In this document: positions 17,210 through 33,177 of the stretch, one piece after another
Layout: the number at the start of each line of letters is the position of its first letter
How positions within the stretch are numbered: the stretch's first letter is position 1
DNA from: Lachnospiraceae bacterium
GTDB taxonomy: Bacteria; Bacillota; Clostridia; Lachnospirales; Lachnospiraceae
Length of the DNA stretch: 43,593 nucleotides
Direction of reading: 5' to 3'
Assembly: GCA_022792335.1 (NCBI GenBank)
Contig: JAAWAV010000040.1
Location: forward strand, 1 to 43,593
The notes under the pieces: generated by a model
Database searches by the model: none
Seen by the model: the letters and a program-made list of their open reading frames with translations, nothing else
What the model was told of the DNA's origin: nothing
Program-made: the position numbers and the translations under genes

Positions 17210-17243
17210 TCTGAAACCCTCCTCATCCATGATTCTTTCCTTA

Positions 17244-17272
17244 ATTATAATGCGGAAACCTTAGAATGCCAA
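17244..17272 (-). promoter_or_regulatory. Promoter of the DUF4432 gene
   Basis: On the minus strand TTGGCA (17267-17272), 17 bases and a perfect TATAAT (17244-17249). Its position favours the internal start at 17209 for the gene. Confidence 0.75.
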
Positions 17273-17353
17273 TAGTTTTTATAAACAGGTTTCCGTGCTT
17301 GATACGAAGCCAGGAAGAAAACAGATGTTTTTATAAAAGCTTATGAAAAAACG

Positions 17354-17379
17354 CAGAGAATTTTTGGTAAAATCCTCTG
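17354..17379. other. Stem-loop in the divergent spacer
   Basis: CAGAGAATTTT (17354-17364) and AAAATCCTCTG (17369-17379) pair at 10 of 11 positions around a 4-base loop. On the minus strand it is followed by CG and six T, so it may stop antisense or read-through transcription toward the DUF4432 gene. The remainder of 17280-17400 shows no gene. Confidence 0.45.
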
Positions 17380-17416
17380 TTTTGGCGATTCTTTGACGCT
17401 TTTTTTGACGGCCGAA

Positions 17417-17445
17417 TTGTTATACTAATGTCAATTAAATATAAA
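17417..17445 (+). promoter_or_regulatory. Candidate promoter of the surface-fibre operon
   Basis: TTGTTA (17417-17422), 17 bases and TATAAA (17440-17445). A nearby TATACT (17421-17426) has TTGACG only 10 bases away, so it is less likely. The predicted transcript has a leader of about 115 bases before the first gene. Confidence 0.5.
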
Positions 17446-17454
17446 ACTAATACG

Positions 17455-17560
17455 AAACCATGCCAAGAAGGCGCCTACAAGGAGGCGTCTTTCGAGGATT
17501 GAATAGGAAATCACGGACCTACCGCACCAAAAGACGCGGGGGAAGGACGCAGACAGGGAG
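17455..17560 (+). promoter_or_regulatory. Structured 5' leader with alternative pairings
   Basis: AAGGCGCC (17468-17475) pairs with GGCGTCTT (17484-17491), with one G-U, around an 8-base loop. The same right arm, as GCGTCTTT (17485-17492), is perfectly complementary to AAAGACGC (17530-17537). The two pairings exclude one another, as in a riboswitch or attenuator. I could not match it to a known riboswitch class; the c-di-GMP-I core GACGCAAAGC is absent. Confidence 0.4.
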
Positions 17561-17566
17561 TACACA

Positions 17567-18022
17567 ATGACAGAAAAAGAATTTCGGAAACTAAACCGTC
17601 GGGAGGTTCTCCAGTTACTGCTGACACAGGTGCAGGAAGAACGGGAACTTCGTCTGCGGCTGGAGGAGACGGAAACCAGGCTTCAGGAACTGGAGAAGGT
17701 CTATGAGCGGTTAAAATCTCGCCTGAACAGTAAGGACGCCAAAATACATAAGCTGGCCGGACGCCTGGATAAAAAAGATATACAGATCAAGGCGTTAAAA
17801 GGCGAACTGGAGAGACAAAGAACGGAAAGAAGGATTCGGCTGAGGGAGGCCGGCTCCATTGCGGAGGCTTCGCTGAGGCTCCATGGAATCTTTGAGTCGG
17901 CTCAGAAGGCGGCAGATTTATATCTGGAAAATATAGAGAGGTTGTACGGCGGCCGGAAACAGTCCAGCATTTCTGACAAAGAGGAGGAACTGCCTTCCGA
18001 AAGGAGCCATACATGGGAGTAG
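17567..18022 (+). CDS. Small coiled-coil protein opening the surface operon
   Basis: 151-residue soluble, highly charged protein. Residues 20-110 are a near-continuous coiled coil (ERELRLRLEETETRLQELEKV and later heptads), with no signal peptide or membrane segment. An amphipathic stretch (LRLHGIFESAQKAADLYLENIERLY) follows. I do not recognise a named family. Its stop overlaps the next start by 10 bases, so it is translationally coupled to the signal peptidase. A cytoplasmic scaffold at the assembly site is one possibility, but this is inference. Ribosome site AGGGAG. Confidence 0.75.
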   Translation: MTEKEFRKLNRREVLQLLLTQVQEERELRLRLEETETRLQELEKVYERLKSRLNSKDAKIHKLAGRLDKKDIQIKALKGELERQRTERRIRLREAGSIAEASLRLHGIFESAQKAADLYLENIERLYGGRKQSSISDKEEELPSERSHTWE

Positions 18023-18594
18023 AGGAAAAGACACTCGCCGAACTGGTGGAAGAGGAGCTGCAGAAAGAAACCCACAAGCATTCCCGCAGACGAATTGCAG
18101 GAGGGACGCTTGGCGTTCTCGTGGTAGTGATTGCGGCAGTAGTCCTGGTGGCAGTGTTCTTGTGTCCGGTCCTGCAAATTTCAGGTAATTCCATGGAAGA
18201 GACGCTTTATGACGGCGATGTTGTAGTAGCGATAAACAGTAAAAATCCGGAAGCCGGAGATGTAATCGCGTTTTATTATGGAAATGATATTTTACTGAAA
18301 CGAGTCATTGCAACCGGGGGACAAACGGTAGATATTGATGAGGACGGCAACGTCTATGTGGACGGTCAGCAGCTTGAAGAGCCTTATGTCAGTGAGAAAA
18401 CTTTGGGGAACTGCGATATTGAACTGCCTTATCAGGTGCCGGAGGGAACCTTTTTTGTACTGGGGGATCATCGATCGGTTTCTATAGACAGCCGGAGCCG
18501 GACCATCGGCTGCGTGGAGAAAAAAATGATAATCGGAAAAATTATGCTCTGTGTCTGGCCCCTGTCAGACATGGGTCTTGTAAGCGGATTTTAG
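18013..18594 (+). CDS. lepB: Type I signal peptidase (bacterial Ser/Lys type)
   Basis: 193-residue membrane protease that removes signal peptides. A basic N-terminus and one membrane helix (about 34-54) are followed by the catalytic Ser60 in SGNSMEETL and the general-base Lys96 in LLKRVIA. The C-terminal box GDHRSVSIDSRTIG-type motif reads GDHRSVSIDSRSRTIG and is complete. It is encoded immediately before the giant adhesin (15-base gap), so it probably processes components of this operon. A second, mechanistically different peptidase lies at 28649. Confidence 0.92.
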   Translation: MGVEEKTLAELVEEELQKETHKHSRRRIAGGTLGVLVVVIAAVVLVAVFLCPVLQISGNSMEETLYDGDVVVAINSKNPEAGDVIAFYYGNDILLKRVIATGGQTVDIDEDGNVYVDGQQLEEPYVSEKTLGNCDIELPYQVPEGTFFVLGDHRSVSIDSRSRTIGCVEKKMIIGKIMLCVWPLSDMGLVSGF

Positions 18595-18609
18595 GGAGGA
18601 GGAAAAAAG

Positions 18610-21600
18610 ATGGTATCTTCGGTATTTAGACAGGCGGCGGAACTTTTACGCAAACGGAAAAGAAATAAACGGTGGATGGCGGTACTTCTTTGCTTAGCAG
18701 TTTTAGTGGCGGCAGGTACCTTTATGCTTTTAAAGCCCACCGGCAGGGCGATGACCCGCGAGGAGAAGGTTTTTCACTGTTCTTACGTGGCTCATGCCCA
18801 TACGGAAACCTGTTATGACGGGGAAGGGGCCTTGCTTTGTGGCTATGGAGATTATGTGATACACACCCATAAGGAGGACTGCTACGGAAGCGAAGGCGCG
18901 CTAGTTTGTCCCCTTCCTGAGGTGGAAGTTCACATTCACGAGGCCGGTTGTTTTGAAGAAGAACAGACCTTGATTTGTGGTCAGGAAAGTGGAAATGGCG
19001 GCCACGAGCATACGGAAGCCTGTTTTACGGGGGAGAGGACCTGCGTCTGCGGACTGGAAGAACATGCCCATACGGAGACATGTTACGGAGAGGATCAAAC
19101 CGGTATCTGTGGTTTGGAAGAACATATTCATGTGGAAGAATGCTATACAGTAGATACCAATCCGGTCTGCGGTCTGGAAATAGGGGCCGGCGGTCATGAA
19201 CATACGGAAGCATGTATTCAGACAGAACAGAGGCTTCTCTGTGAAAAACCGGAAATCAGACCTCATATTCACGAAGCAGGTTGCTATGGAACAGAAGAAA
19301 GCGGAAATGAGGTTCGGATCTGTGGTCTTTTGCAGGTGGAGGAACATATTCACGGGGAAGAATGTTTTGAAACCATAGAGGTTGCCGTTGCAGAGACGAT
19401 GGACCCTACAGTCTCTCAGGAAGAAACATCTGGAGCAGCGGGAGAACAGACAGAGACGGACGGGGAAACAGTAGAAACGGAAGAAACGACGAAGCCGGAA
19501 GGAGAGACGGCAGAAGAGACGAGCGGCGCGGAAGAAGAAACAGAAGAAGTAGAAGAGACGACTGGAACGGAAGAGGAAACAGAAGAAGTAGAAGAGACGA
19601 CTGGAACAGAAGAGGAAACAGCAGAAACAGAGGAGACAGACGGACAGGAAGAGACAGAGGACGTAGAAGAGATTTTTACACAGAGCTGGGAAAACGAACG
19701 GTATATAGTTACGGCCGCCTATAAGGCTGCAGCGAATCTGCCGGAGAATGCAGAGCTTCAGGTGGAGGAGATTACTCCGGAAAGTGATCCGGAACGTTAT
19801 GCAAGGCGAGACGCCCAGGCCCAGGAACTCCTGGAAGAAGATATGAGATTGCGTTGTCTGTTCCATATCGGATTTTATGTAGACGGCGTGGAGGTGGAGC
19901 CGGAAGATACCGTCAAGGTGACAATCCAGTTTCTGGACGAAGAAGGCTGTGCGAAGGGAGCTCCTGTTACAGTAGTCCATTTTAAAGAAGAAGAAACAGA
20001 AATTCTGGAAGGTTCCCAGGTGGATGAAAACGGCGCCTCCAGTTTTGATACCGATTCCTTTTCAGATATTGCACTGTATCTGAATGAGTTTGGCGTACTG
20101 ACGGAAAGCGACGGAAAAGTCCGTGATTACAACGGACTGAAGCAGGAGGTTGAGCGCCTTTCTGAGGGCGGGACTAGAGAGATCACACTGGAAGCAGACT
20201 TTGCCGTCGAGGTAGGTCAGGGGCCTTTGACCCTGCCGATCAATGCAAACGTAGTTCTGGACTTGAACGGCCATACGATTACAGTCAATTCAGGAGTGAG
20301 TTTATTTTCAGTGACCAATAACGCGACGCTGATCGTTAAAGACAGCGGCGGAGAGAATCCGGTTCAGGACTCCGGGGCAGACGAGGGAGAATGGAACGGA
20401 TACGGCTGGACCGGAGATCCGGGAAGTATGGACGGGGGAGTGCTGACCTACTATGAAATTCGTTCAGAGGGCCAGGGCAGCAGTACAGTGGAACGGCTGT
20501 ATCGGCATCAGGTGACCGGGGGCGGAAGGATTATACGAAGAAACAGCGCCGGGGCTTCCAACGACGCGCTGATATTTGTCAAAGAGGGAACATTTACGCT
20601 GGAGGGAGGGATGCTGGAGGGCGGAGGCCTGACCGGCATCATTACTCTGGCGGAGACGCCGCTCATTGCGAACACATTGAATTTGCAGGGCGGCTATATC
20701 TGTAATGGAAAAAGCAGTCTGACTGGGAATAACTGGGTTGATAAAAAATATCAGGCCAGCGGCGGCGCAGTTGTCGCCGGAGCGAATACAAATATTCACT
20801 TGAATGGAACTGTCATTGCCAATAATCGCACCGAATATGCCGGAACACAGGAGAACTGGGGAAGCGGCGGCGGGATTGCCATGCTTGGAAGCGGTACGCT
20901 TCGGATATCCGGCGGAATGGTCACCGGAAATCAGTCCAGTGTATACGGAAAAGGCGGCGGAATCTACACAGCCGACAATGTGGCAGTGACAATGGAAGGC
21001 GGCAGTATCTGCAACAATCTGGATGCTTATCGCGAAGTGACGGGAAGCGTAGCAGAGAGAAAAGCAGAGTACGGACAGTATGACGGCGGCGGCGGAATTT
21101 TGGTGGGTAAAAGCTTCACAATGACTGGCGGCCAGATTGTCGGGAATACGGGAGCCGGAGGCGGTGGAATCCAGACCACGGCAAACGGTTCGGATATCTC
21201 TATCCAGTGCGGCGTCATTGCCCGGAACCTGGCGACGCTCCATGAAGGCGGCGGCCTGGTGGTCGTCGGGGAAAAAGGATATGCAAAGATCAAAGGAGAA
21301 GCAGGCGCTGTCTACATCACCAACAACAGGACGGCGACACTCCATGACTGGGGCGGCGGTGGAATTTTCTGTGTGGAGAATGCGACGGTAAATATTCAGA
21401 GCGCGCTGATTACCAATAACAGGGCTGCGGGCTATGGCGGAGGCGTCGGCGGTTGTTCCAACGCACAGATTGTCGAGATGAGTCCTATCACTCTGGATAT
21501 CGGTACGGCTGTTTACGGAAATCAGGCGGAGGGGAGACGGACAACAGACTCTTGGTACAAAGAACCCGGTTCTTTTACTCAGGATGAGGAATTTGCACAG

Positions 21601-23556
21601 CATGACGGTACCTTTCTCAGTGATTTTTCCCAATGGTTTCAGAATATAGCAGGCTCCAATGGTTACAGCGATTATTACTGTGAGCAGCACAGCATTGTAA
21701 GCAACCGGATGTTAGGAGGGGGGTACTCCAACTGGATCGGAAGCTCCAATAGTACGGCAGATATCAGCGGGCAGAGCGGCAATGAAAGTACGCAGCTTAT
21801 CTTTTCCCGGGAGAAAGACGATGTTCGTACTTCGACCAACCGGATGGGGTTGACGGCAGATCCTTCCGAGCAGTCCAGACAGGCCGCCGCCGGGGCGGCA
21901 AGAGTCTATATCACCGGAAATCACTCAGAAACTCATGGCGGCGGAGTACAGTGCAACGGGATTTTGGTCCTTGGAGACTATCAGGAGTGTATATTCGGGG
22001 ATACTCTGGTTTTGACCGGATTGAAACAGCTATTTGGCGCGGACGGGCAGGAAAAAACTTCCATGGAGGCGGGAAGATTTACCTTCGGCCTCTATGAATA
22101 TGAAGAGACAGAAGAAGAAAACAAAGGAAAGAAAATAGGAGAAGCCGTCAATGGAACAGATGGCACAATCAGCTTCTCTCCCCTTTCCATTACTGGAAAC
22201 GGGACGGACACTTCGTTTTCTGTACAGTATCTGATTTTAGAAGAAGAACCTTCCGTGGGCGGCGTTCTGAAAGACTCTGCCAGATACAGGGTGAGAGCCG
22301 ACGTAGCAATGGATACGCTGACGGCAGTGGGAAACCAGAACTATACCTGGAAACAGTACAACATTGAACAGGTAACCGTGGAACGCTGGTCGGAAGAAGC
22401 CGGAGACTGGGAACCGGTCCGGACAATGACAAAAGACGACTGGCAGGGAACCTCCGGAGCAAAAACGGCTTCTCTGACGGAACCGGGAGTACCGACGTTT
22501 GTCAACCGGGAAATTGAAAAAATAGACTTGAGGATTCAGAAGGACTGGAAAGACGGCAGCGCTACAGATGAGGCCAAAGCGTATATCCAGTCTGTCACTG
22601 TACAACTTTATCGAAGCGAGGATGACGGAGGCTCCTGGTCGGAATATGATCCGGCCGGAGACAGCGGGACAAAAGAGCTGACAGAAGCTGACGGCTGGAC
22701 CTATGAATGGAAGGGACTGGATGTCCGGAGAGACGGCCAGATTTATCAGTACAAAGTCAAGGAAATAGGGATCAATTTTATGCCTGACAGCCCCTTTGAC
22801 GAAGGAGATTTTGTCAATGACGGGGCGAAAGAAACAGACACGAAGGTAGAAACATCCGGAGGGCTTGGGGCTAGCACGCTCACCATTATCAACACACATG
22901 TAGACGATTTGAAGTACAGTTTACGTCTGTCCAAATGGATCGGAGATGAAACGGGAGCTTCGACCGGTTCTTTACTGGCCGGCGCAGAGTTTTCCCTGTA
23001 CCGGATAAATCCGGATGGCAACGAGACGTTGCTTAGTTTCACCGGGAGTAATGGGAGCTTTGAATATGTCGGTGATGCGGACGCAGAGGTTGTGGAAGAA
23101 AGAGCGCAGTCAGAAGAAGAGCTGTCGGAGGGGGTGCAGGCGGAAGAAGAGCATCCGGAAACAGAGGGACTGCAGAAACCTTTTGTAACATTGATTACCA
23201 ACCAGAACGGCGAAATATTTGTCCGGAATCTGCCGGCAGGGACATATCGAATCCGGGAGACGAAGGCCCCCGCTGGATATCTGCCAGTGGAAGATATGGA
23301 TGTGAAAGTGGATGCGGACGCGGCGGCAGAGTCTGGGGCGCCTGTGAAGGAGGATGCAGCCGATTCGGCAGCAGGAATACGGACGGAGGTTCCGACAGAA
23401 GTCCGCGTAGAGATTGTGGATCCCCTTTATTCTTATACACTTCCGGAGTCCGGCGGTATCGGAACGACAATATTCTATCTTGCAGGTGGAAGCCTGATAA
23501 TTGTGGCGGGAATCCTGCTGTTGATCCGACGACGCATCATCAATAGGACGAAATAA
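18610..23556 (+). CDS. Giant sortase-anchored surface protein with HxH-C repeats
   Basis: 1648-residue putative adhesin or pilus backbone/tip. A signal or anchor helix lies at about 20-40. Residues 57-256 hold nine HxHxxxC units, each about 21-25 residues, most closed by a second Cys in CGL-like context. Residues 260-356 are Glu/Thr-rich with a tandem 13-residue repeat. A central region (about 510-1130) is rich in GGG-containing short strands, typical of a right-handed beta-helix. Cna-B/pilin-type beta domains follow (about 1157-1240, 1304-1432 and 1436-1560), with the last containing LPAGTYRIRETKAPAGYLPV. The sorting signal LPESG (1611-1615), a membrane helix and a basic tail (RRRIINRTK) end it. 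The sortase gene follows directly. Confidence 0.9.
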   Translation: MVSSVFRQAAELLRKRKRNKRWMAVLLCLAVLVAAGTFMLLKPTGRAMTREEKVFHCSYVAHAHTETCYDGEGALLCGYGDYVIHTHKEDCYGSEGALVCPLPEVEVHIHEAGCFEEEQTLICGQESGNGGHEHTEACFTGERTCVCGLEEHAHTETCYGEDQTGICGLEEHIHVEECYTVDTNPVCGLEIGAGGHEHTEACIQTEQRLLCEKPEIRPHIHEAGCYGTEESGNEVRICGLLQVEEHIHGEECFETIEVAVAETMDPTVSQEETSGAAGEQTETDGETVETEETTKPEGETAEETSGAEEETEEVEETTGTEEETEEVEETTGTEEETAETEETDGQEETEDVEEIFTQSWENERYIVTAAYKAAANLPENAELQVEEITPESDPERYARRDAQAQELLEEDMRLRCLFHIGFYVDGVEVEPEDTVKVTIQFLDEEGCAKGAPVTVVHFKEEETEILEGSQVDENGASSFDTDSFSDIALYLNEFGVLTESDGKVRDYNGLKQEVERLSEGGTREITLEADFAVEVGQGPLTLPINANVVLDLNGHTITVNSGVSLFSVTNNATLIVKDSGGENPVQDSGADEGEWNGYGWTGDPGSMDGGVLTYYEIRSEGQGSSTVERLYRHQVTGGGRIIRRNSAGASNDALIFVKEGTFTLEGGMLEGGGLTGIITLAETPLIANTLNLQGGYICNGKSSLTGNNWVDKKYQASGGAVVAGANTNIHLNGTVIANNRTEYAGTQENWGSGGGIAMLGSGTLRISGGMVTGNQSSVYGKGGGIYTADNVAVTMEGGSICNNLDAYREVTGSVAERKAEYGQYDGGGGILVGKSFTMTGGQIVGNTGAGGGGIQTTANGSDISIQCGVIARNLATLHEGGGLVVVGEKGYAKIKGEAGAVYITNNRTATLHDWGGGGIFCVENATVNIQSALITNNRAAGYGGGVGGCSNAQIVEMSPITLDIGTAVYGNQAEGRRTTDSWYKEPGSFTQDEEFAQHDGTFLSDFSQWFQNIAGSNGYSDYYCEQHSIVSNRMLGGGYSNWIGSSNSTADISGQSGNESTQLIFSREKDDVRTSTNRMGLTADPSEQSRQAAAGAARVYITGNHSETHGGGVQCNGILVLGDYQECIFGDTLVLTGLKQLFGADGQEKTSMEAGRFTFGLYEYEETEEENKGKKIGEAVNGTDGTISFSPLSITGNGTDTSFSVQYLILEEEPSVGGVLKDSARYRVRADVAMDTLTAVGNQNYTWKQYNIEQVTVERWSEEAGDWEPVRTMTKDDWQGTSGAKTASLTEPGVPTFVNREIEKIDLRIQKDWKDGSATDEAKAYIQSVTVQLYRSEDDGGSWSEYDPAGDSGTKELTEADGWTYEWKGLDVRRDGQIYQYKVKEIGINFMPDSPFDEGDFVNDGAKETDTKVETSGGLGASTLTIINTHVDDLKYSLRLSKWIGDETGASTGSLLAGAEFSLYRINPDGNETLLSFTGSNGSFEYVGDADAEVVEERAQSEEELSEGVQAEEEHPETEGLQKPFVTLITNQNGEIFVRNLPAGTYRIRETKAPAGYLPVEDMDVKVDADAAAESGAPVKEDAADSAAGIRTEVPTEVRVEIVDPLYSYTLPESGGIGTTIFYLAGGSLIIVAGILLLIRRRIINRTK
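19531..19647 (+). repeat. 39-bp tandem repeat inside the adhesin gene
   Basis: Two nearly identical 39-bp units (19531-19569 and 19570-19608) encode the 13-residue block EEETEEVEETTGT. A third diverged copy covers 19609-19647. The frame is kept, so repeat number could change stalk length without disrupting the gene. Confidence 0.8.
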
Positions 23557-23598
23557 GAGAGCCAGAAAGCCACAGGAAAAAACAACGAATATCAGTAA

Positions 23599-23631
23599 CC
23601 CGGTTCTGCTCCGAGAGGGAGCAGGGCCGGG
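23599..23631 (+). other. Intercistronic hairpin between adhesin and sortase
   Basis: A 14-bp stem, CCCGGTTCTGCTCC (23599-23612) with GGAGCAGGGCCGGG (23618-23631), has two G-U pairs and a 5-base loop. No T-tract follows, so it is not a typical terminator. It may be a processing or stability element that sets the adhesin-to-sortase ratio. Confidence 0.6.
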
Positions 23632-23679
23632 AACATCAGGAAAGAATACTCGATACAGCAGTAAGGAGAGGCCCGCAGG

Positions 23680-24558
23680 ATGAAGAAATTTTTGAAAAAA
23701 CGTGCGGTAGGGATCGCTTTGGTCATAGTCATGGTTGCGGGACTGTGCTTAATTCTGTATCCTACGGTCAGCGACTGGTGGAATACCTTCCGCCAGACCC
23801 GCGCGATTACTTCCTATATAGAATCAGTGGAAGAAATGGCGGAGGCGGAATGTGAGACGATGATGGAAGCGGCCCGTTCTTATAACGAAAAGCTGGCGGC
23901 GCGAAATGCCGGATTTGTTCTCAGCAGACAGGAAGAAGAGGAATATCTCTCTCTTCTGGATATTTCCGGTACGGGAATCATGGGATATGTCCAGATTCCA
24001 TCTATAGGAGTGAATCTTCCGATTTATCATGGGACGGATGCAGATGTTTTGCAAACGGCTATCGGTCATTTGACCGGGAGCAGTCTCCCTGTAGGAGGGG
24101 AAAGCGCCCACTGTCTGATTTCCGGACACCGGGGGCTGCCATCGGCGAAGCTTTTTACCGATCTGGACCGGTTAGAGGAGGGGGATATTTTCACCCTGAC
24201 GGTATTGAATCAGACAGCCACTTATCAGGTGGACCAGATACGGGTGGTTCTGCCGGAGGAACATCAGGGCCTTGGAATCGAATCGGGGGAGGATTTTTGT
24301 ACACTGATTACCTGTACTCCTTACGGAGTCAATAGCCACAGACTTTTGGTGCGCGGACGGCGGATAGCAAACCTTACCGGGGAACAGGAAGTCCGGGCAG
24401 AAGCAGTGAAGTATCCGGCTTACCGGGCGGTTTTAATTATCGGGATTCCACTGGTGCTTTTTATTCTTCTGGTTCTGGCAGTCTATCGTCTGATCAGACG
24501 CCCCAAAAAGAGTACAGGAGAACTTTTGGCAGATTTGAGGAAAGACGATCATTCATAA
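23680..24558 (+). CDS. Class C (pilus-type) sortase
   Basis: 292-residue membrane transpeptidase that joins pilin subunits and/or attaches surface proteins. An N-terminal helix (about 10-28) and a C-terminal helix (about 248-270) flank the catalytic domain, the topology of class C enzymes. The catalytic residues are His150 (ISGHRG), Cys212 (TLITCTPYG) and Arg221 (SHRLLVRG). The preceding LPESG protein is the obvious substrate, and the LIKTG protein at 26960 may be another. A lid motif is not obvious. Ribosome site AAGGAGAG. Confidence 0.92.
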   Translation: MKKFLKKRAVGIALVIVMVAGLCLILYPTVSDWWNTFRQTRAITSYIESVEEMAEAECETMMEAARSYNEKLAARNAGFVLSRQEEEEYLSLLDISGTGIMGYVQIPSIGVNLPIYHGTDADVLQTAIGHLTGSSLPVGGESAHCLISGHRGLPSAKLFTDLDRLEEGDIFTLTVLNQTATYQVDQIRVVLPEEHQGLGIESGEDFCTLITCTPYGVNSHRLLVRGRRIANLTGEQEVRAEAVKYPAYRAVLIIGIPLVLFILLVLAVYRLIRRPKKSTGELLADLRKDDHS

Positions 24559-24579
24559 CAAGTGAAGGAGGGATGGCTC

Positions 24580-25644
24580 ATGAAAAAGAAAGGAATCTGT
24601 TCGGCCATAGTGGTTTTGCTGGCGGTGGGCCTGTGCCTTGCAAGGCCGGTTATCGGCGGAGCGGCGGAAGATACCGAATATCTGAAAAAACCATGTTCTG
24701 TGACGGTTCAGACCGGAAATAAGGAATATGAAGAAGATATGGAAGAGGCCCAGGTAGTCCTGGAACTATATAAGGTGGCAGACGCAGTGGCAGTACAGGG
24801 AAATGCCGGCTATGTCTATGAACTTACGGAAGCATATAAAGGCCTGACGGTGAAAGAAAATCCCGAGAGGGAGGACTGGATGGCTCTTGCGGAGGAGGCA
24901 GCGAAGCGAACCCTGGCTCCGGAAGAGAATCGAACTCCGATGGATCCTGACGTACAGGGAAATCCCGGGGAACGGATAGGGACAGGAAGCGGTCTGTATC
25001 TGCTGGTTGCCAGAGGAAGTGACTTGGAGACGTATACAGACGTCATACAGACAGAGGATGGGGAGAAACTGGTCACAGTTGCCAAATCCCCTCGGTATAC
25101 GTATCTGTTTGAGCCGCAACTGCTCTCCTTGCCCGTGGGGGATCCGGAGAATGGAGCAGCCATGAATACAGTCTCTTCGGGAAACTGGGTTTATGACACG
25201 GCGGTGGCATTAAAGACAGAACGGGTTCCAAGGTATGGTTCCCTGGAAATCGTAAAGACTCTGCAAAGCTATGAGACGAAGGAACCGGCCATGTTTGTAT
25301 TCCAGATTGAGGCGGTTTTGGATGGAGAGACAGTCTACAGTGACGTGGAGAGCCTGATTTTTGAAGAGGCGGGACGCCAGAAGATACGTTTGGAAAATCA
25401 GTTTCCGGCCGGAGCCCAGGTGACTGTGACGGAGGTTTATAGCGGAGCGGTCTATCATTTGGAGACGGAGGAATCGCAGACGGTAGAAATTGTCGCAGAC
25501 TCAGCAGGTTTAGCAGAATTTATCAATGATTACGAAGAAGAGCAAAAAGGCGGGCACGGAGTTGTCAACCAGTTTAATTACAGCGGTACAGGAGCTTTTG
25601 ACGGATGGGAATGGACGCAGATTTCGGCGGGAAATCCGGAATAG
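24580..25644 (+). CDS. Pilin-like secreted protein without sorting signal
   Basis: 354-residue secreted protein from ATG 24580, preceded by GAAGGAGGG. The upstream in-frame start at 24562 lacks a good site. The signal peptide is KKKGICSAIVVLLAVGLCL...GGAAE. An N-terminal pilin-like region contains GLYLLVARG and TYLFEPQLLSLP, seen in shaft-type pilins. A Cna-B/FctA-like beta domain (about 215-330) contains YGSLEIVKTLQSYE, YSDVESLIFEEAGRQKI and FINDYEEE. The protein ends in GWEWTQISAGNPE with no LPxTG motif, membrane helix or basic tail. It may be held by interaction or isopeptide linkage; this is inference. Confidence 0.75.
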   Translation: MKKKGICSAIVVLLAVGLCLARPVIGGAAEDTEYLKKPCSVTVQTGNKEYEEDMEEAQVVLELYKVADAVAVQGNAGYVYELTEAYKGLTVKENPEREDWMALAEEAAKRTLAPEENRTPMDPDVQGNPGERIGTGSGLYLLVARGSDLETYTDVIQTEDGEKLVTVAKSPRYTYLFEPQLLSLPVGDPENGAAMNTVSSGNWVYDTAVALKTERVPRYGSLEIVKTLQSYETKEPAMFVFQIEAVLDGETVYSDVESLIFEEAGRQKIRLENQFPAGAQVTVTEVYSGAVYHLETEESQTVEIVADSAGLAEFINDYEEEQKGGHGVVNQFNYSGTGAFDGWEWTQISAGNPE

Positions 25645-25657
25645 GAGGGATGTAGAT

Positions 25658-26170
25658 ATGAAAAAGAAAAGCAATCTCCTGGCGGTTCTTGCGCTGGCGG
25701 TGATACTGAGTGCCGGAATCGGAAAGGCGTGGGCTTATTTTACGACTTACGCAGAAGCCGCCGGAGGGTACACCATTGAGCTTGGAGACCGGACGGAAAT
25801 TCAGGAAGAGTTCGGAGAATGGACCAAACGGGTTTCAGTCTCCAACAATGAGACTTCCGGGCAATCCGTATATATCCGGGCTAAAGCATTCAGCGGGAAT
25901 GCCTATGAGCTCACTTATGAGGATGAATCGGGAAAATGGACGCCGGGAGACGGCGGATACTACTATTACAGTGACCCGGTAAAAGCCGGAGAGGCTACAG
26001 GGGAACTCCTGGTCCATATCGGAAACATCCCTCAAAATGCAAACGAGGGAGACCGTTTCCATGTGGCTGTTGTTTATGAAAGTACGCCGGTCCGGTATGA
26101 TGCAGATGGAAATCCGTATGCAGACTGGAATGAAGTCCTGGATACTGGGGCAACGGAAGGGGGAGAGTGA
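25658..26170 (+). CDS. SipW-dependent-type secreted protein (TasA/CalY-like), small
   Basis: 170 residues. The N-terminus MKKKSNLLAVLALAVILSAG followed by AWAYFTTYAEAAGG matches the SipW-dependent signal peptide pattern in which the cleaved region ends near AYFT. The mature part has alternating beta-like segments (WTKRVSVSNNETSGQSVYIRAKAFSG, GELLVHIGNIPQ and FHVAVVYEST). In Bacillus, such proteins (TasA, CalY) are matured by SipW and build extracellular fibres. A SipW-type peptidase is encoded 2.5 kb downstream in the same operon. The chosen ATG follows AGGAGGG; the longer frame from 25526 lies inside the previous gene. Confidence 0.78.
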   Translation: MKKKSNLLAVLALAVILSAGIGKAWAYFTTYAEAAGGYTIELGDRTEIQEEFGEWTKRVSVSNNETSGQSVYIRAKAFSGNAYELTYEDESGKWTPGDGGYYYYSDPVKAGEATGELLVHIGNIPQNANEGDRFHVAVVYESTPVRYDADGNPYADWNEVLDTGATEGGE

Positions 26171-26172
26171 GC

Positions 26173-26949
26173 ATGAAAAGACCGAAAAAACTTCTGCCGC
26201 CGGCCCTGACAGCAGTGATGTTTGTCGCAGCCATGGCGATGTTACTCTTCGGCTCTGTGGAAAGCACAAGGGCGGCGCTGACTTATTATTCCGAGACGTA
26301 TGCTTCCAGGGTCCAGATGTATAATATCGGCGTATCTTTAAAGGAAAATGGAGAGCGGGTTTCCTGGAGAGATTATAACAGCGCCGGAAACGGAACCTGG
26401 AATGAACATACGGGAGTACTTCTTTCCCACATGTTGGAAGAAGGGGAATCTCTGAAACTGGGAAAAACCTATGAGGAAGTTCTGAATGTGGTCAACAGCG
26501 GGACCATTAACCAGTATGTGCGGGTAACCATTTATAAATACTGGATGGATGCAGAGGGAAAGAAACTGCAGGAACTTTCCCCGGCTCTGATTGATCTGAA
26601 CTTGGTCAATCTGGGAAGCGACTGGATCCTGGATGAAGAGGCGACAACGCCGGAACGGACGGTACTATATTACAAGAAACTCCTGTATGCGGAGGGAGAA
26701 GGCGTATCGGAGACGTCGCCTTTTGCCGATACACTGACGATTGACGGTATGGTGGCTTCCAAAGTGAGTCAGGAGAAAGTGACAGAGGGAGGCTATACGA
26801 CGATTACCACGTCCTATGATTATGACGGAGTTCAGTTTATGCTGGAAGCCAAGGTGGACGCCGTACAGGAACACAATGCGGAAGATGCGATTTTGAGTGC
26901 ATGGGGAAGATCTGTGACAGTCAGCAATCATATGCTGAGTCTGGATTAA
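26173..26949 (+). CDS. SipW-dependent-type secreted protein, large
   Basis: 258 residues. The signal region PPALTAVMFVAAMAMLLFGSV is followed by ESTRAALTYYSETYASR, the SipW-type cleavage neighbourhood. Residues 40-250 look beta-rich (YNIGVSLKENGERVSWRDY, VLNVVNSGTINQYVRVTIYKYW and VQFMLEAKVDAVQEHNAEDAI), recalling CalY/TasA-family fibre proteins. It starts two bases after its smaller neighbour stops. A GTG at 26167 is possible but ATG 26173 fits the GGGGGAG site better. Together the two may form a major/minor fibre subunit pair; that is inference. Confidence 0.75.
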   Translation: MKRPKKLLPPALTAVMFVAAMAMLLFGSVESTRAALTYYSETYASRVQMYNIGVSLKENGERVSWRDYNSAGNGTWNEHTGVLLSHMLEEGESLKLGKTYEEVLNVVNSGTINQYVRVTIYKYWMDAEGKKLQELSPALIDLNLVNLGSDWILDEEATTPERTVLYYKKLLYAEGEGVSETSPFADTLTIDGMVASKVSQEKVTEGGYTTITTSYDYDGVQFMLEAKVDAVQEHNAEDAILSAWGRSVTVSNHMLSLD

Positions 26950-26959
26950 GGAGGATAGC

Positions 26960-27736
26960 ATGAGGAAGAAAGGAATTGGCCTACTTTTGGCGCTGGCGTT
27001 GTTTTCCGGCTGCTTACTTCCGGCCCGGGCGGAAACCTTTTACGGAGATAAAGACTGGCATGTGGATTTTACAGCGGAAGAAGAGATGGAGAGCAATTTT
27101 AAGACCTCCGATTTGGATGAAGTAGTCAGCGGCTTGCAGCCGGGGGACAACATCTTGATTACGCTGGCCCTGGAAAACAGCCACAAAGAAACAACAGACT
27201 GGTATATGACAAATAAGGTCCTTTACTCGTTGGAGGACAGGAGTGCGAACTCGGCTACCGGGGGAGGCGCATATACTTACCGGCTGACCTATCAGGATAA
27301 GGCCGGTACGGAGACAGTACTTTTTGACAGCGAAACAGTAGGCGGCGATACCGTCAGCGCTGCGGGCGAGGGGCTGCATGCGGCGACAGACGCCCTGAAA
27401 GATTATTTCTACCTAGATACACTGGAGAGCGGACAGAAAGGGACGATTACTCTGGAAGTTGCTTTGGACGGAGAGACACAGGGGAATGATTATCAGGATA
27501 CTCTGGCAGATTTGCAGATGAATTTTGCCGTGGAACTGCGAGAAGATACGCCGGCAGAGCCACAGACGCCGGGAACGCCCCGGAAGGAGACCGGAAAGAG
27601 CGGTCTGATCAAGACGGGGGATGAGAGCCAGCCGGTTTTTCTGGCAGTGCTGATGACAGGAAGCGGTCTGCTTCTTCTGCTGTTTTGTGTATTTCAGTGG
27701 AAAGAGGGCAGAAGAAGGAAAAAGGAGGAAGGGTAG
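26960..27736 (+). CDS. Surface protein with LIKTG sorting-like signal
   Basis: 258-residue secreted protein. A signal peptide (residues 1-24, ending PARAE) is followed by a beta-rich region (LQPGDNILITLALENSHKETTDWYM resembles TasA-type phrases) and a Pro/Thr linker (TPAEPQTPGTP). The C-terminus has the three parts of a sorting signal: LIKTG at 216-220, a hydrophobic helix (FLAVLMTGSGLLLLLFCVF) and a basic tail (KEGRRRKK). The Ile in place of Pro makes it a variant of LPxTG. It might anchor the SipW-type fibre to the wall via the operon sortase. Ribosome site AAGGAGGA. Confidence 0.8.
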   Translation: MRKKGIGLLLALALFSGCLLPARAETFYGDKDWHVDFTAEEEMESNFKTSDLDEVVSGLQPGDNILITLALENSHKETTDWYMTNKVLYSLEDRSANSATGGGAYTYRLTYQDKAGTETVLFDSETVGGDTVSAAGEGLHAATDALKDYFYLDTLESGQKGTITLEVALDGETQGNDYQDTLADLQMNFAVELREDTPAEPQTPGTPRKETGKSGLIKTGDESQPVFLAVLMTGSGLLLLLFCVFQWKEGRRRKKEEG

Positions 27737-27737
27737 G

Positions 27738-28652
27738 ATGAAAAGAGGGAGACAGCTTTTCTGTATAGTACTTTCGCTGTACCTGCTTTGCTTTTCAGTA
27801 GTCGGCAGCCTGGCGGCTGACGCGAAGGAGTCGGCATATACCTATACGGTCCGCTTTTTTTCCGGGCAACAGGGAACGATAGACGGACAGGAGATGGTGG
27901 TACTGGAAAATCTTCATTACGGGGATCAGATTACCTTCAACCGAAACTCCGTGTCCCTGTACAACGGAAGCAAATATTATTTCAAAGGAATCCGGAGAAG
28001 CGGGGAGGACAATAATACAGTCGGAACACTGACCTTTACTGTGACGGAGGATCAGGACTACGTGGTTGCTTACGGAATCCTGGGAAACAGCGCCGCTTAT
28101 ACGGTCAACTATGTGGACGAAGCAGGAAATTCTCTTGCGCCCAGTGAAACTTATTATGGAAACGTGGGAGATAAGCCGGTGGTTGCGTATCTTTATATTG
28201 ACGGTTACCGTCCGCAGGCTTATAATTTGACAAGAACGTTGTCTGCAAATGCCGCGGACAATGAGTTTACCTTTGTTTATGCGGCCCTTCCCGTAGGAGA
28301 GGGAGAGGCAGCGCCCGGGCAGGAAACGCCAGAATCCTCGGGAGCGCCTGACGAGGCGGTGGCCGTGATCCCGGCGGAAGAGGTACCAGGGGCTCAGGAG
28401 GGAGAAGAAGAGGAGGAAGAGGGACAGGATATTGACGACGAGGAAGTCCCTTTGAGTAACAGAGGACCAAAACAAGTCATGAACCTGGACGATGAGAAGG
28501 TTCCTCTGGCGGCGTTTTTCTTTGACAGTAATGCAAAGCTTCTGGGAATCCCGGTTCCGGTAGTTCTCATATCGGGCGGAATCCTGGCAGGAGGCCTTCT
28601 GTGGTATTTGCTTTTGTTCCGGAGACGGAAGAAAAAGGAACGTATATCATGA
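27738..28652 (+). CDS. MucBP-domain surface protein with doubled DDExVPL tail
   Basis: 304 residues from ATG 27738, one base after the previous stop, with an AAGGAGGAAG site. The signal peptide ends near SLAADA. A MucBP-like domain (about 130-190) contains YTVNYVDEAGNSLAPSETYYG and GYRPQAYNL. An acidic Pro/Glu linker is followed by two copies of a DDExVPL motif (IDDEEVPL at 232-239; LDDEKVPL at 250-257), a membrane helix (VPVVLISGGILAGGLLWYLLLF) and RRRKKK. This doubled tail recurs in Lachnospiraceae surface proteins (family knowledge) and replaces a clear LPxTG. Mucin binding is suggested by the domain only. Confidence 0.78.
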   Translation: MKRGRQLFCIVLSLYLLCFSVVGSLAADAKESAYTYTVRFFSGQQGTIDGQEMVVLENLHYGDQITFNRNSVSLYNGSKYYFKGIRRSGEDNNTVGTLTFTVTEDQDYVVAYGILGNSAAYTVNYVDEAGNSLAPSETYYGNVGDKPVVAYLYIDGYRPQAYNLTRTLSANAADNEFTFVYAALPVGEGEAAPGQETPESSGAPDEAVAVIPAEEVPGAQEGEEEEEEGQDIDDEEVPLSNRGPKQVMNLDDEKVPLAAFFFDSNAKLLGIPVPVVLISGGILAGGLLWYLLLFRRRKKKERIS

Positions 28653-29206
28653 AAGAACAATCATCTATGCAACCGGGAAGTATTTCCGGAAAAAGGAGCA
28701 GGAAGCCACTTCCTGCCCTTTGCAGATTCATCGGAACTTTTGTTTTGGTCGCTATCATCATCGCTTTTTTGCCATTGACCCTTCCTCGCGTAGTAGGGTG
28801 GGAGGTCTATGAGGTGGTCAGCGGGAGTATGGAGCCGGAGATCCCGGTGGGAAGTGTGATTTATGTAAAGTCGGCGGAGCCGGAAGAAATCGGAACAGGC
28901 GATATCATTGCCTTTCAGAAAAATGGATCGGTGATCACTCACCGGGTGGTGGAGAATCGTCTGGAAGAGCGGGAGTTTATTACCAAAGGGGATGCAAATC
29001 GGACAGAAGATATGACTCCGGTAGCCTATGAGAGCCTGGTGGGAAAGGAAGCGTTTCATATTCCCCAGGTAGGGTTTTTGATGACTGTTCTGGCTGGGAC
29101 GGCCGGGAAAGTCTATGTGGTATTTTTGGCTATAGGAGGGGTTATGCTCCGCATGTTTGCTGGAATCCTTGAAAGACGGGAAGGGGAAAAGGAGGATGGA
29201 GCGTAG
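28649..29206 (+). CDS. sipW: SipW-type signal peptidase I (Ser/His, ER/archaeal type)
   Basis: 185-residue membrane protease of the SipW/S26B group. Catalytic Ser60 lies in VSGSMEP, and the general base is His98 in VITHRVV where bacterial enzymes have Lys. KGDANRTED supplies the conserved aspartate region. Membrane helices lie near residues 25-47 and 150-172. ATG 28649 overlaps the previous stop as ATGA; the longer frame from 28601 lacks a site. The two SipW-type signal peptides upstream make it the likely dedicated maturase for those proteins. Confidence 0.92.
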   Translation: MKEQSSMQPGSISGKRSRKPLPALCRFIGTFVLVAIIIAFLPLTLPRVVGWEVYEVVSGSMEPEIPVGSVIYVKSAEPEEIGTGDIIAFQKNGSVITHRVVENRLEEREFITKGDANRTEDMTPVAYESLVGKEAFHIPQVGFLMTVLAGTAGKVYVVFLAIGGVMLRMFAGILERREGEKEDGA

Positions 29207-30443
29207 AGAAAGCGAGGAAGCCCCTGTGTTATATGTACAGATGTTCGGCGGCTTTTCCATGACTTGGAAGGGAGCGCGGCTTTTTGGCGGATCGAAAACC
29301 AGGGAATCTCAGTTTGTCTACCTGATGCAGCTTCTTTTACACCAGCGGGAAACAGGAGTCAGCCGGGATGCACTGGAGGAAGTCCTGTTTGGGGAACGAG
29401 AGATCGACAACACTCACAACGCCATGCGAAGTGTGATTTATAATGCGAAGAAGAAGCTTCGGAAGGCGGGGCTTCCGGATGTTCCTTATATTATACAGAA
29501 GAGGGGAGTTTTTTACTGGACAGAGGCCATTGCCGTTTCGGAGGACTCTTCCAGGTTTGAGGAACTTTTAGGGAAAGCGGAGGAAACGAAAGGGGCAGAA
29601 GAAAAGATCAGATATCTCCTGGAGGCCTGTTACTCTTATCGCGGAGAATTTCTGCCGCAACAGGCGGCAGTCCTCTGGGTAGCCCAGGAAAGCAGAAGGT
29701 TTCAGGAATTATTTTTTTCTGCTGTAGAGAAGGCCGCCGAACTGCTTAGAAAGCGGCAGGACTGGCTGCGGATGAAAGAACTTGGCATCCACGCTTCCAC
29801 AGTCAGCCCTTTTTCAGACTGGGAAGTACTTACCATGGAAGCTCTTGCTGCCATGGGGCAGTACGAGGAAGCCAGGAAGCTGTACGACGAGACAGTGGAG
29901 TACTATGTCCGGGAGCAGGGAGTCCGCCCTGCAGGACGGATGCTGGAACTGCTGGAGAAGCTGGGGAAGCAGATGAGCCATCAGTACGCTCTGTTAGATT
30001 CCATACAGGCGGAACTGTCAGAGGGGGCGACAGAACAGAGCGGAGGTTATCTTTGCGTTTATCCGGAGTTTCGAGGAATCTATCATATGGTGAAACGAAT
30101 GATGGAACGGGGCGGTCAGTCGGTGTACCTGATGCTCTGTACTATTATAGACAGCCGGGGAAGGCCGATGAAAGACGGGCCTTTGCTGGAGCGTCTGGCC
30201 GGGCGTCTGGAGCAGGCTATCTGTCACTCCATCCGTCGGGGAGATACGCTGTGTCGCTATGGAAGAAGCCAGTATCTGACCCTTTTGATTAACACCACCA
30301 GGGAAAGTTGCACCGTTGTTCAGAAACGGATCAATGAAAAGTTTGTCATCGGACGTCAGCGGATCGGAATCAGATACCATGTAAACAGTGTCCTTTGCCC
30401 CATTGGGAAACAGGAGAGTCTGGAGACGGCAGAGAAAGGATGA
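29196..30443 (+). CDS. BTAD-type transcriptional regulator with degenerate GGDEF-like tail
   Basis: 415-residue cytoplasmic regulator. Residues about 10-105 form an OmpR-like winged helix (LFGGSKTRESQFVYLMQLLL and NAMRSVIYNAKKKLRK, with a wing YIIQKRGVFYW), as in SARP/BTAD activators. Residues about 110-270 match the helical BTAD repeat domain (WEVLTMEALAAMGQYEEARKLYDETV). The last 130 residues resemble a GGDEF fold, but the signature is RYGRSQYLTLL instead of RxGGDEFxxLL, so cyclase activity is unlikely. The start overlaps sipW by 11 bases; a GGGAAGGGG site favours ATG 29196, with GTG 29226 possible. Probable regulator of this operon. Confidence 0.82.
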   Translation: MERRESEEAPVLYVQMFGGFSMTWKGARLFGGSKTRESQFVYLMQLLLHQRETGVSRDALEEVLFGEREIDNTHNAMRSVIYNAKKKLRKAGLPDVPYIIQKRGVFYWTEAIAVSEDSSRFEELLGKAEETKGAEEKIRYLLEACYSYRGEFLPQQAAVLWVAQESRRFQELFFSAVEKAAELLRKRQDWLRMKELGIHASTVSPFSDWEVLTMEALAAMGQYEEARKLYDETVEYYVREQGVRPAGRMLELLEKLGKQMSHQYALLDSIQAELSEGATEQSGGYLCVYPEFRGIYHMVKRMMERGGQSVYLMLCTIIDSRGRPMKDGPLLERLAGRLEQAICHSIRRGDTLCRYGRSQYLTLLINTTRESCTVVQKRINEKFVIGRQRIGIRYHVNSVLCPIGKQESLETAEKG

Positions 30444-30448
30444 GTCAT

Positions 30449-30928
30449 ATGGAACAATCAGACTGGCATATCGGGGCGCCCAACGGCGTGGTGATATGCA
30501 TCAATGGGTGGAAAGGACAGCAGATTGTAGGGTGCTTTTATCATAGTTACAGTGGCAAAGCTACAGAATTTGAAACCATTGACCAGATCCTTTTTCAACT
30601 GGAATGTTTTTTTGACTTATTAAATTTTCCTTATGCGGCTACGGCTGAACGGACATTTGGGCGGCAGAACAGGAAGGCAGACAGAGATAGGAAGTGGGTA
30701 AAGACAATGAAGGATAAAGAATTGCTGCAAAAACATGGAGAGCTGGGAACGTTTATCGTCCGCGTTCAGCACCGTCAGCACAGTAGCTGGCAGGGACGGA
30801 TCACTTGGGTCGAGCAAAATAAGACCATGTCTTTCCGCTCCATCTGGGAATTGATTAAGCTGATGGTAAGCGCTGTGGAAACGGTTGGCGCGAGCAAAGA
30901 AGAGGAGAACCTTTCCTGGTTCGACTGA
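30449..30928 (+). CDS. Unrecognised two-part protein ending the surface operon
   Basis: 159 residues, with no signal peptide or membrane helix. I do not recognise a named family. It has two compact parts joined by a basic linker: residues 10-70 (VVICINGWKGQQIVGCFYHSYSG then FETIDQILFQLECFFDLLNFPYA) and residues 105-155 (LGTFIVRVQHRQHSSWQGRITW then FRSIWELIKLMVSAVE). Both read as beta-strands followed by a helix, suggesting duplicated folds. ATG 30449 has AAAGGA eight bases upstream; ATG 30440 overlaps the regulator stop. Tight linkage suggests a partner of the BTAD regulator. Confidence 0.72.
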   Translation: MEQSDWHIGAPNGVVICINGWKGQQIVGCFYHSYSGKATEFETIDQILFQLECFFDLLNFPYAATAERTFGRQNRKADRDRKWVKTMKDKELLQKHGELGTFIVRVQHRQHSSWQGRITWVEQNKTMSFRSIWELIKLMVSAVETVGASKEEENLSWFD

Positions 30929-30959
30929 CTGATTATAGAAGAAAGCAGGCTGCAAAATG

Positions 30960-31012
30960 ACTGGAGTTTCTGTATTCCTTTCAAATGGAAATTACGGAAA
31001 CTCCAGTTTTCT
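30960..31012 (+). terminator. Terminator of the surface-fibre operon
   Basis: ACTGGAGTTTCTGTA (30960-30974) pairs with TACGGAAACTCCAGT (30993-31007) over 15 bases with one G-U pair, followed by TTTCT. It marks the end of the operon that begins at about 17450. Confidence 0.82.
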
Positions 31013-31045: not shown

Positions 31046-31137
31046 GTTCATAAATATTGAGGAACGACGGCGCCGGAGCAAAGCGTGGATGCGCGGGCGG
31101 GGCGGAGGGGGATTGGCCCCTGTTCAAGGAGAATCGT

Positions 31138-33177
31138 ATGAAAAATGATGTAAAATTGAAAGGGTGGCTGCAAAATTTCCTGGGATGGCCGCTTTATATG
31201 GGGATTTTGGTTCTGGCTATGACGGCGACGGCTTATGTGTTTGATATCAAGGCCGGCTTTATCTGTACGGGCCTAGCGGCCGTTTATCTGATAATTGCGC
31301 TGTGGTTTTATTTTGCGAAACGTCCGCTTGTGATGAGAGAGCTTCTGCTCTTTGCAGTGAACCATGCTCAGATCCAGAAGCAGCTTTTGTCTGATCTGGA
31401 CGTACCTTATGCTCTTCTGGACGAGCAGGGACGGGTGCTTTGGATCAATAAGGCTTTCGGTATGGTGATACGGAAGGACAAAAGCCTGAGGAAGCGGATC
31501 ACCGATCTGTTTCCGGAGCTTTCTTCTCATCCTTTTTCTGATTCAGACCAGGAGGCGGTCTGGGACGTCGCCTATGAAAACCGCTTTTTTCGGTTACACC
31601 TGAAAAATATTTACATGTCTGATGTGGATGAGGAAACGGAGGGGGAAGGCAGTTTCCGGGTAGGGCTTATTGCTGCTTACCTTTTCGACGAGACGGAAAA
31701 GATTCAGTTCCAGCAGGAGATTGAAAATCAGAAGCTGGTGGCGGGACTTATCTATCTGGACAACTATGAAGAGGCGTTAGAAAGTATCGAGGAAGTGCGT
31801 CGTTCCCTGCTGATTGCCTTGATCGATCGGAAAATCAACAAATATCTCGCAAGTATCGGCGGAATTGTCAAGAAGGTTGAGAAAGACAAATACTTTATCG
31901 CCATTAAAAAACAATACATGGAGAGTCTGACGGCTTCCCGGTTTTCCCTTCTGGAGGACGTAAAAACAGTCAATATAGGAAACGATATGGCTGTAACGCT
32001 TTCTATCGGGCTTGGAATGGGAGGCGGAAGCTATGTTCAGAATTATGAATATGCCAGAACAGCCATTGACATGGCGCTTGGCCGTGGCGGAGATCAGGCC
32101 GTAGTGAAGGACGGGGAGACCATTAATTACTACGGTGGAAAATCCCAGTCCCAGGAAAAGAATACCCGTGTGAAGGCCCGTGTGAAGGCTCACGCCCTCA
32201 GGGAGCTTCTGGAGACGAGAGAAAAGATTTTTATTATGGGCCACAAGATTGGCGATGCAGACTCTCTGGGAGCAGGGATTGGCATATACCGGGCCTGTGC
32301 GACCTTAAACAAAAAGGCGCATATTGTCCTCAATGACATTACTACTTCTGTCCGTCCTGTCCTGGAGCGGTTTGTCAACAATCCGGATTATCCGGACGAT
32401 ATGTTTGTCCGGGGAGACCGGGCAATTGAAATGGCTGACGACAGCGCCCTTTTGGTAGTGGTGGATGTGAACCGGCCAAGTCTGACGGAGTGCTCGCCGC
32501 TTCTTGGCATCATTCCCACGGTGGTGGTTTTAGACCATCACAGGCAGACCAGCGACAGCATTTCCGGTGCGGTGCTTTCCTATGTGGAGCCTTATGCATC
32601 GTCGGCTTGCGAGATGGTGGCAGAGATTTTGCAGTACATCGGGGACAATATCCGAATCCGCCAGGCCGAGGCGGACGCCATGTATTCCGGAATTGTCATT
32701 GATACCAATAACTTTATGAACAAAACCGGAGTCCGTACCTTTGAGGCGGCGGCATTCCTCAGAAGAAACGGAGCCGATGTGACCAGGGTAAGAAAAATTT
32801 TCCGCGACAGTATGTCTGATTATAAAGCCAAGGCGGAGGCTGTGCGCCATGCGGAAATTTTTGAAGATGCGTTTGCCATCAGCGTATGTCCGGCGGAAGG
32901 GGTGGAAAGCCCGACCATCATCGGCGCACAGGCTGCCAATGAATTGTTGAACATCGTAGGGATCAAGGCCTCGGTGGTCCTTACGGAATACCAGAACAAG
33001 ATTTATTTAAGCGCCCGCTCTATCGACGAGGTGAATGTGCAGATTATCATGGAAAAGCTTGGCGGCGGCGGTCATATGAGCGTAGCCGGAGCGCAGCTTA
33101 AGGATTGCACCGTTGAAGAGGCGAAGGCGAGAGTCAAAGAGACCATTAAGAAAATGCTAGATGAAGGAGAGATTTGA
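31138..33177 (+). CDS. gdpP: GdpP-type cyclic-di-AMP phosphodiesterase
   Basis: 679-residue membrane enzyme hydrolysing c-di-AMP, linked to potassium and osmotic balance. The start at ATG 31138 has an AAGGAGAA site; the frame is open further upstream without one. Two membrane helices (about 15-60), a PAS-like domain (about 75-165) and a degenerate GGDEF domain (about 170-325) precede the DHH domain with [12 protein letters not shown] (Asp373, Asp375) and [11 protein letters not shown] (Asp466, His467, His468). The DHHA1 domain ends with [13 protein letters not shown]. All metal-site motifs are present. The gdpP-rplI-dnaB order is conserved in Firmicutes. Confidence 0.95.

Follow-up and report, generated by a model that had tools for sequence, protein, structure and literature searches.

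A run of twelve open reading frames (ORFs) on contig JAAWAV010000040.1 of a Lachnospiraceae bacterium (GCA_022792335.1), all 43,593 nucleotides of which make up the window analysed here, combines the genes of a sortase pilus kit with those of a SipW-type secretion kit, and the two kits probably give rise to a single appendage in which they are joined by the product of gene 5 (genes numbered as in Table 1). As commonly described, pili of Gram-positive bacteria are assembled by sortases and anchored in the wall, and TasA-type fibres form without a sortase. From the sequences we conclude that gene 5 most plausibly encodes an acceptor-only base pilin, which would link the chain made by the class C sortase (gene 4) to the SipW kit (genes 6 to 10). 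Four features of the compared sequences support this assignment, namely a retained acceptor lysine, an absent wall-sorting signal, the replacement of an LPxTG basal pilin and natural fusions that appear to stand in for the sortase step.

Gene 5 as candidate adaptor

The gene 5 protein comprises a pilin D1-like domain with the motif W203-x8-K212 (residues about 31-214), a CnaB/DUF5979-like domain with K226/E285/N316 (residues 219-320) and a C-terminal tail, modelled at low confidence, which bears the asparagine N330. The acceptor lysine of the N-terminal pilin domain is kept in all 107 distinct standalone copies aligned, corresponding to 117 rows, and N330 is invariant in these 117 rows as well as in five fusions. 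This alignment is the only analysis pooling loci from genomes of the family with those from named genomes. A wall-sorting signal was found neither in gene 5 nor in any of its 80 named homologues. The protein matches basal pilins that adjoin sortases. A conventional pilus operon from this family (L060) shares the left half of the window locus but closes with an LPxTG basal pilin. In the window, this basal pilin is replaced by gene 5, genes 6 and 7, two membrane- or wall-anchored proteins and SipW. N330 is a possible partner in an intermolecular bond. By analogy, we suggest a TapA-like role for the tail; the donor strand of TasA is N-terminal, and TapA has been proposed as the source of the first strand in the available part of the TasA report (PMC9674648).

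That the sortase product is gene 5 linked to an adhesin or pilus is argued most strongly by fusions found where the sortase is absent. At four loci (L048, L051, L169, and L170), a protein of 1072 to 3635 residues, whose gene immediately precedes genes 6 and 7, terminates in the C-domain and tail of gene 5. These fused proteins possess neither the lysine-bearing N-domain nor an [LI]Px[TS]G motif at any position, and the fetched DNA of the four loci, upstream flanks included (only 2.9 kb upstream in the case of L169), yielded no class C sortase. An adjacent class C sortase gene is present at 32 of the 35 assessable standalone family loci (window included; L156 not assessable) versus none of the four assessable fusions (Fisher p 4.3e-4, a value that is indicative since the loci are related). 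In a gene 7/8 tree of 41 family rows labelled as fused or standalone, the label changes four times, at least three of these changes being forced by well-supported branches, and in a larger tree the loci lacking gene 5 fall outside. Where the sortase is absent, fusion seems to provide the link otherwise expected from the enzyme.

Regarding the substrate side, gene 3 bears a single LPESG motif, scoring 16.7 versus 15.9 bits in the LPxTG test with TIGR01167 and 17.4 bits with Pfam Gram_pos_anchor, below the cut-off of 20. Scanning gene 3 for W-x8-K and for the PK dipeptide gave neither, hence no recognisable pilin-type acceptor lysine. A backbone pilin gene combining acceptor lysine and LPxTG is missing between gene 3 and the sortase gene in the window as well as in L073 and L075, while two LPxTG-type genes are in view at 55 of 81 loci (window counted), some of the others being partly cut by contig ends; the backbone pilins of relatives have invariant lysines in 59 of 59 cases. 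Without a backbone pilin gene in the window, its sortase could, as far as motifs tell, join gene 3 to gene 5 only. With gene 3 also devoid of a recognisable acceptor, the simplest product would be one gene 3 protein linked to one gene 5 protein.

The arrangement recurs. The named set (L072-L151) consists of the 80 best among 300 relatives in named genomes, a selection leaning to the window type; four contigs are present in both this and the family set (L031/L091, L032/L102, L033/L088, and L034/L107), and the sets were not summed. Two of the named loci stem from the cultured commensals Dorea sp. 5-2 (L090) and Hominifimenecus microfluidus CLA-AA-H215 (L102). All 80 named loci show genes 5, 6, and 7 in direct succession, and at 73 of them a class C sortase gene ends no more than 1.5 kb before gene 5. 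In four of the remaining seven (L078, L104, L125, and L139), a contig end lies close to gene 5, and at L096 the sortase is 1.8 kb upstream; the other two are considered below. The gene order is shared across many genera and, being so recurrent, exceeds chance. In the own genome, three class C sortase genes are present, one in the window and an adjoining pair on contig C9, where they are followed by a second copy of gene 7 (53% identical) together with the whole block. Gene 7 protein matches were obtained in 19 of 200 family genomes and, with a profile at E 0.001, in 70 of 397, many of them weak (own genome included in both counts). An earlier note on this DNA, proposing a hybrid surface fibre, had held that relatives in which the two halves never occur together would speak against it. 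The halves do occur together in the 73 named loci and at both loci of the own genome, corroborating the hybrid, while each half also occurs alone and the joint formed by gene 5 had been overlooked. Two hybrid loci, L123 (Adlercreutzia sp. ZJ141) and L144 (Eggerthellaceae), stem from records labelled Actinomycetota, which suggests horizontal transfer.

As to the SipW half, gene 10 exceeds the cut-off of TIGR02228 (51.85 bits) and reaches 89.8 bits with the Bacillus SipW model NF046067, below its cut-off of 190; SipW-type peptidases above cut-off are encoded only twice in the own genome, once per hybrid locus. Genes 6 and 7 are homologous (hhalign 98.3%, E 2.5e-14), with gene 8 showing weak profile similarity to both, and matches to the BsaA family TIGR04090 at E ≤0.01 were obtained for 16 of 21 homologues of gene 6 and 21 of 26 of gene 7. 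Besides the sandwich fold, the gene 6 prediction shows disorder in a segment following the signal peptide (low confidence). Homologues of gene 8 end with a T-G-D/E motif plus membrane segment in nearly all rows. The one in L144 (6881-7651) has a true LPKTG, distant relatives in other families (L180 and L181) carry MPKTG and adjoin SipW-type genes and a short ORF resembling a sortase, and a basal-pilin-like ORF of L067, on a short contig without sortase, ends in KTSDE. These motifs support gene 8 as a putative wall-linked member, for which two further sortases of the own genome are possible enzymes. At L167 (13509-15230, reverse-complemented coordinates), genes 8 and 9 are fused and encode one protein of 573 residues, which suggests that both may act together. 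Anchoring via the LIKTG and MucBP proteins (genes 8 and 9) is plausible, and genes 6 and 7 might assemble in a TasA-like manner.

Proposed assembly and competing explanations

In the assembly that we propose, genes 3, 5, 8, and 9 would be exported via ordinary signal peptides, while SipW (gene 10) would process genes 6 and 7. Cleaving gene 3 at LPESG, the class C sortase would attach it to K212 of gene 5, with a backbone pilin inserted between adhesin and gene 5 in most relatives. Gene 5 would terminate the covalent chain without being itself wall-linked, because it keeps the acceptor lysine and has no sorting signal. Its C-terminal domain and tail would dock onto the SipW-secreted subunits (genes 6 and 7), for which genes 8 and 9 would serve as surface anchors, and the gene order would run from tip to base. 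The sortase bond, the docking, the anchoring and the shape taken by genes 6 and 7, an extended TasA-like fibre or else a short socket, are deduced. In a fuller version, the base pilin would have swapped its wall signal for a docking domain plus tail, N330 plugging into and perhaps spontaneously bonding SipW-secreted TasA-like subunits to give one chimeric fibre built by two chemistries, and in many relatives the message would be split by a ribozyme like that of hepatitis delta virus (HDV); this combination is tentative and falls somewhat short of what we would call probable.

Several observations weigh against the single appendage and the roles given to its parts. At L144, the class C sortase is located at the far end, the two halves being swapped, and at L110 none is in view. 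Standalone gene 5 copies without adjacent class C sortase exist at L037, L044, and in the second L052 block; each of these genomes has a class C sortase elsewhere. A fifth fusion (L035), truncated by the contig start and thus devoid of upstream DNA, has kept N-domain and lysine; the L051 branch is long and its placement unsure, and the changes between fused and standalone were counted without direction. Furthermore, gene 6 scores 27.7 bits with TIGR04090 (cut-off 60), gene 7 of the window has no NCBIfam family match at E 0.01, TasA is absent among the matches listed from a fold search with the gene 6 model, and gene 8 of the window has no proline at the place where a standard LPxTG motif has one.

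Somewhat unlikely in our view is that genes 6 to 9 merely make a short wall or membrane socket, present in one or few copies, which holds the base of the sortase chain without any fibre being formed. The occurrence of genes 6-9 as single copies in fixed order in the standalone loci read would fit such a socket, as would the fused gene 8/9 protein and the weak BsaA likeness of genes 6 and 7. However, the SipW-dependent proteins BsaA and TasA do polymerise according to the portions available of the respective reports (PMC7395162, PMC9674648), and the disordered stretch of gene 6 lies at the N-terminus, the site of the TasA donor strand.

It is less credible still, and indeed improbable, that a matrix fibre of the TasA type exists apart from a sortase-built adhesin or pilus, the two appendages being only co-regulated by a shared operon and never touching each other. 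Sortase pili without SipW genes exist, and gene 7-8 blocks with neither a recognised gene 5 nor a class C sortase are found at 13 fetched family loci (L053-L056, L171-L179), 12 of which also have gene 9; moreover, BsaA polymers of Clostridium perfringens are independent of srtB, as stated in the available part of that study (PMC7395162). Against separation, gene 5 would be left without means of staying on the cell, and its C-domain, when fused to giant proteins having neither LPxTG nor adjacent sortase, still directly precedes genes 6 and 7. A further, highly improbable reading, with gene 5 as a tip or minor pilin that is secreted and either released or added otherwise, and with the sortase polymerising gene 3 itself, would agree with the missing backbone pilin gene of the window, but gene 3 has just the one LPESG and no recognisable acceptor lysine, and gene 5 retains such a lysine and resembles basal pilins beside sortases.

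The single appendage joined by gene 5 resembles several known systems in part. With class C sortase pili of the SpaA/EbpC/CppA type, it shares the sortase, the LPxTG-type adhesin, the pilin D1 domain with acceptor lysine and, in most relatives of the window locus, an LPxTG backbone pilin; it differs in a basal subunit without wall-sorting signal that is followed by a SipW kit, and the window in addition has no backbone pilin. The TasA/TapA/SipW fibre of Bacillus subtilis, as described in the accessible part of PMC9674648, likewise pairs a peptidase of the SipW type with small, beta-rich substrates that carry the corresponding signal peptides, whereas here no TapA was recognised, no TasA fold match was obtained, the subunits are apparently joined to a sortase chain via gene 5, and the anchors have membrane segments. 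The sipW-bsaABCRSD locus of C. perfringens is similar in its BsaA-like proteins, SipW, operon-encoded regulators and a flanking sortase gene; in contrast, its sortase srtB is unneeded for BsaA polymers, and the sections available of that report mention neither a pilin-like adaptor nor an LPxTG adhesin (PMC7395162). Finally, TasA-CalY-CapP of Bacillus cereus also has a pair of TasA-type subunits within a single filament system, plus a third, wall-bound protein, but is reported as sortase-independent, and a pilin-domain adaptor is not mentioned in the part available (PMC13082335).

Many gut Lachnospiraceae records appear to join both systems via a dedicated adaptor. A description of such a sortase-SipW hybrid was not found in the open-licence PubMed Central (PMC) literature, a scope leaving most subscription papers and preprints outside. 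If correct, the joint would represent a new, third way of rooting bacterial pili and would explain a pilus rooted without wall signal on its base; separate and fused adaptors offer a natural comparison, and the covalent joint is testable.

An HDV-like ribozyme candidate before the sortase gene

The gap preceding the sortase gene of the window contains a strong hairpin (z -4.6). Relatives have hairpins of other sequence at the same site, and in many of them the pilin-sortase gap consists of a hairpin and then a conserved element, the hairpin often standing right before it. Two copies of this element were tried against RF02682, the HDV-like ribozyme of Faecalibacterium prausnitzii, and scored 41.2 and 41.7 bits (E about 1e-6), not reaching the gathering score of 44; no gathering match was obtained in 6 sources. 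A model built from 21 copies found the element in 41 of the 80 named loci, for example at 6977-7053 of L088, but neither in the window nor in any of 66 other loci given (L031-L034, L049, and L156-L158 excluded). The hybrid locus of L123 includes the element. When scanning 200 whole family genomes, with at most 21 candidates scored per genome under strict filters, matches were obtained in seven; four matches above 70 bits are all located just before the sortase gene of a hybrid locus, and weak ones of 31-46 bits occur in G012, G025, and G102.

The element can be folded into a nested pseudoknot of P1, P2, and P3 with P4, and by pattern C-N-R-A follows P4 in 41 of 41 copies. At least five P2 pairs (G-U allowed) can be formed in 37 of 41 copies versus a partner-shuffled mean of 32.1 and maximum of 36, a weak control since one P2 sequence is common to most copies. 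Covariation in P2 is evident from the pairs GCTGAC/GTCAGC, ACTGGC/GCCAGT, and TGGTTGAT/ATCAACCA. We regard the element as a candidate for an HDV-like self-cleaving ribozyme between pilin and sortase genes of relatives; if it cleaves itself, the message would be cut between the two. A ribozyme at the hybrid locus was not found described in the open PMC literature.

Layout of the operon

All twelve ORFs are co-directional and, apart from the interval between genes 3 and 4, neighbors overlap or are at most 21 bases apart (Table 1), so that co-transcription of the run is likely. A consensus scan of positions 16987-17566 listed no promoter-like site on the + strand. The earlier note had correctly recognised a co-directional run but counted eleven genes. 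Its longest gap of 123 bases between adhesin and sortase genes, the strong terminator, the LPESG protein (motif at residue 1611) with its class C sortase and the MucBP protein (26.6 bits with PF06458, gathering score 23) were all recovered. Of the SipW-type set claimed there, the peptidase passes its family cut-off and the two secreted proteins are classified weakly; the LIKTG protein has LIKTGD and a membrane segment, with a borderline TIGR03063 score (18.3 versus 18.15).

Table 1. Genes and other elements of the operon, with positions in the window.
Feature	Position	Strand	Remarks
Gene 1, 151-residue coiled-coil protein	17567..18022	+	relative is also first gene of the ordinary pilus operon L060
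Gene 2, Ser/Lys-type signal peptidase I	18013..18594	+	TIGR02227 119 bits; SGNSMEE and LLKRVIA in translation
Gene 3, 1648-residue adhesin-like protein, LPESG	18610..23556	+	Cna_B and SpaA domains near C-terminus
Gap with strong hairpin, 123 bases	23557..23679	+	no U run
Gene 4, class C sortase	23680..24558	+	NF033745 268 bits, cut-off 160
Gene 5, candidate adaptor (pilin D1-like, CnaB/DUF5979-like, tail)	24580..25644	+	no sorting signal
Gene 6, SipW-type secreted protein, weakly BsaA-like	25658..26170	+	predicted beta-sandwich
Gene 7, second SipW-type secreted protein	26173..26949	+	homologous to gene 6
Gene 8, secreted LIKTGD protein with membrane segment	26960..27736	+	candidate wall/membrane anchor
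Gene 9, MucBP protein	27738..28652	+	doubled D-E-VPL motif; C-terminal membrane segment
Gene 10, SipW-type (Ser/His) signal peptidase	28649..29206	+	TIGR02228 102.8 bits; SGSMEPE and THRVVE
Gene 11, BTAD-type transcriptional regulator	29196..30443	+	39.9 bits, cut-off 22.1; weak C-terminal GGDEF match
Gene 12, frequent companion of gene 11	30440..30928	+	hypothetical protein
Terminator hairpin, 20 base pairs, then U-rich sequence	30959..31008	+	-28.3 kcal/mol, z -6.7

Directly 3' of the terminator, at 31057-33177, lies a gene for a GdpP-like cyclic-di-AMP phosphodiesterase.

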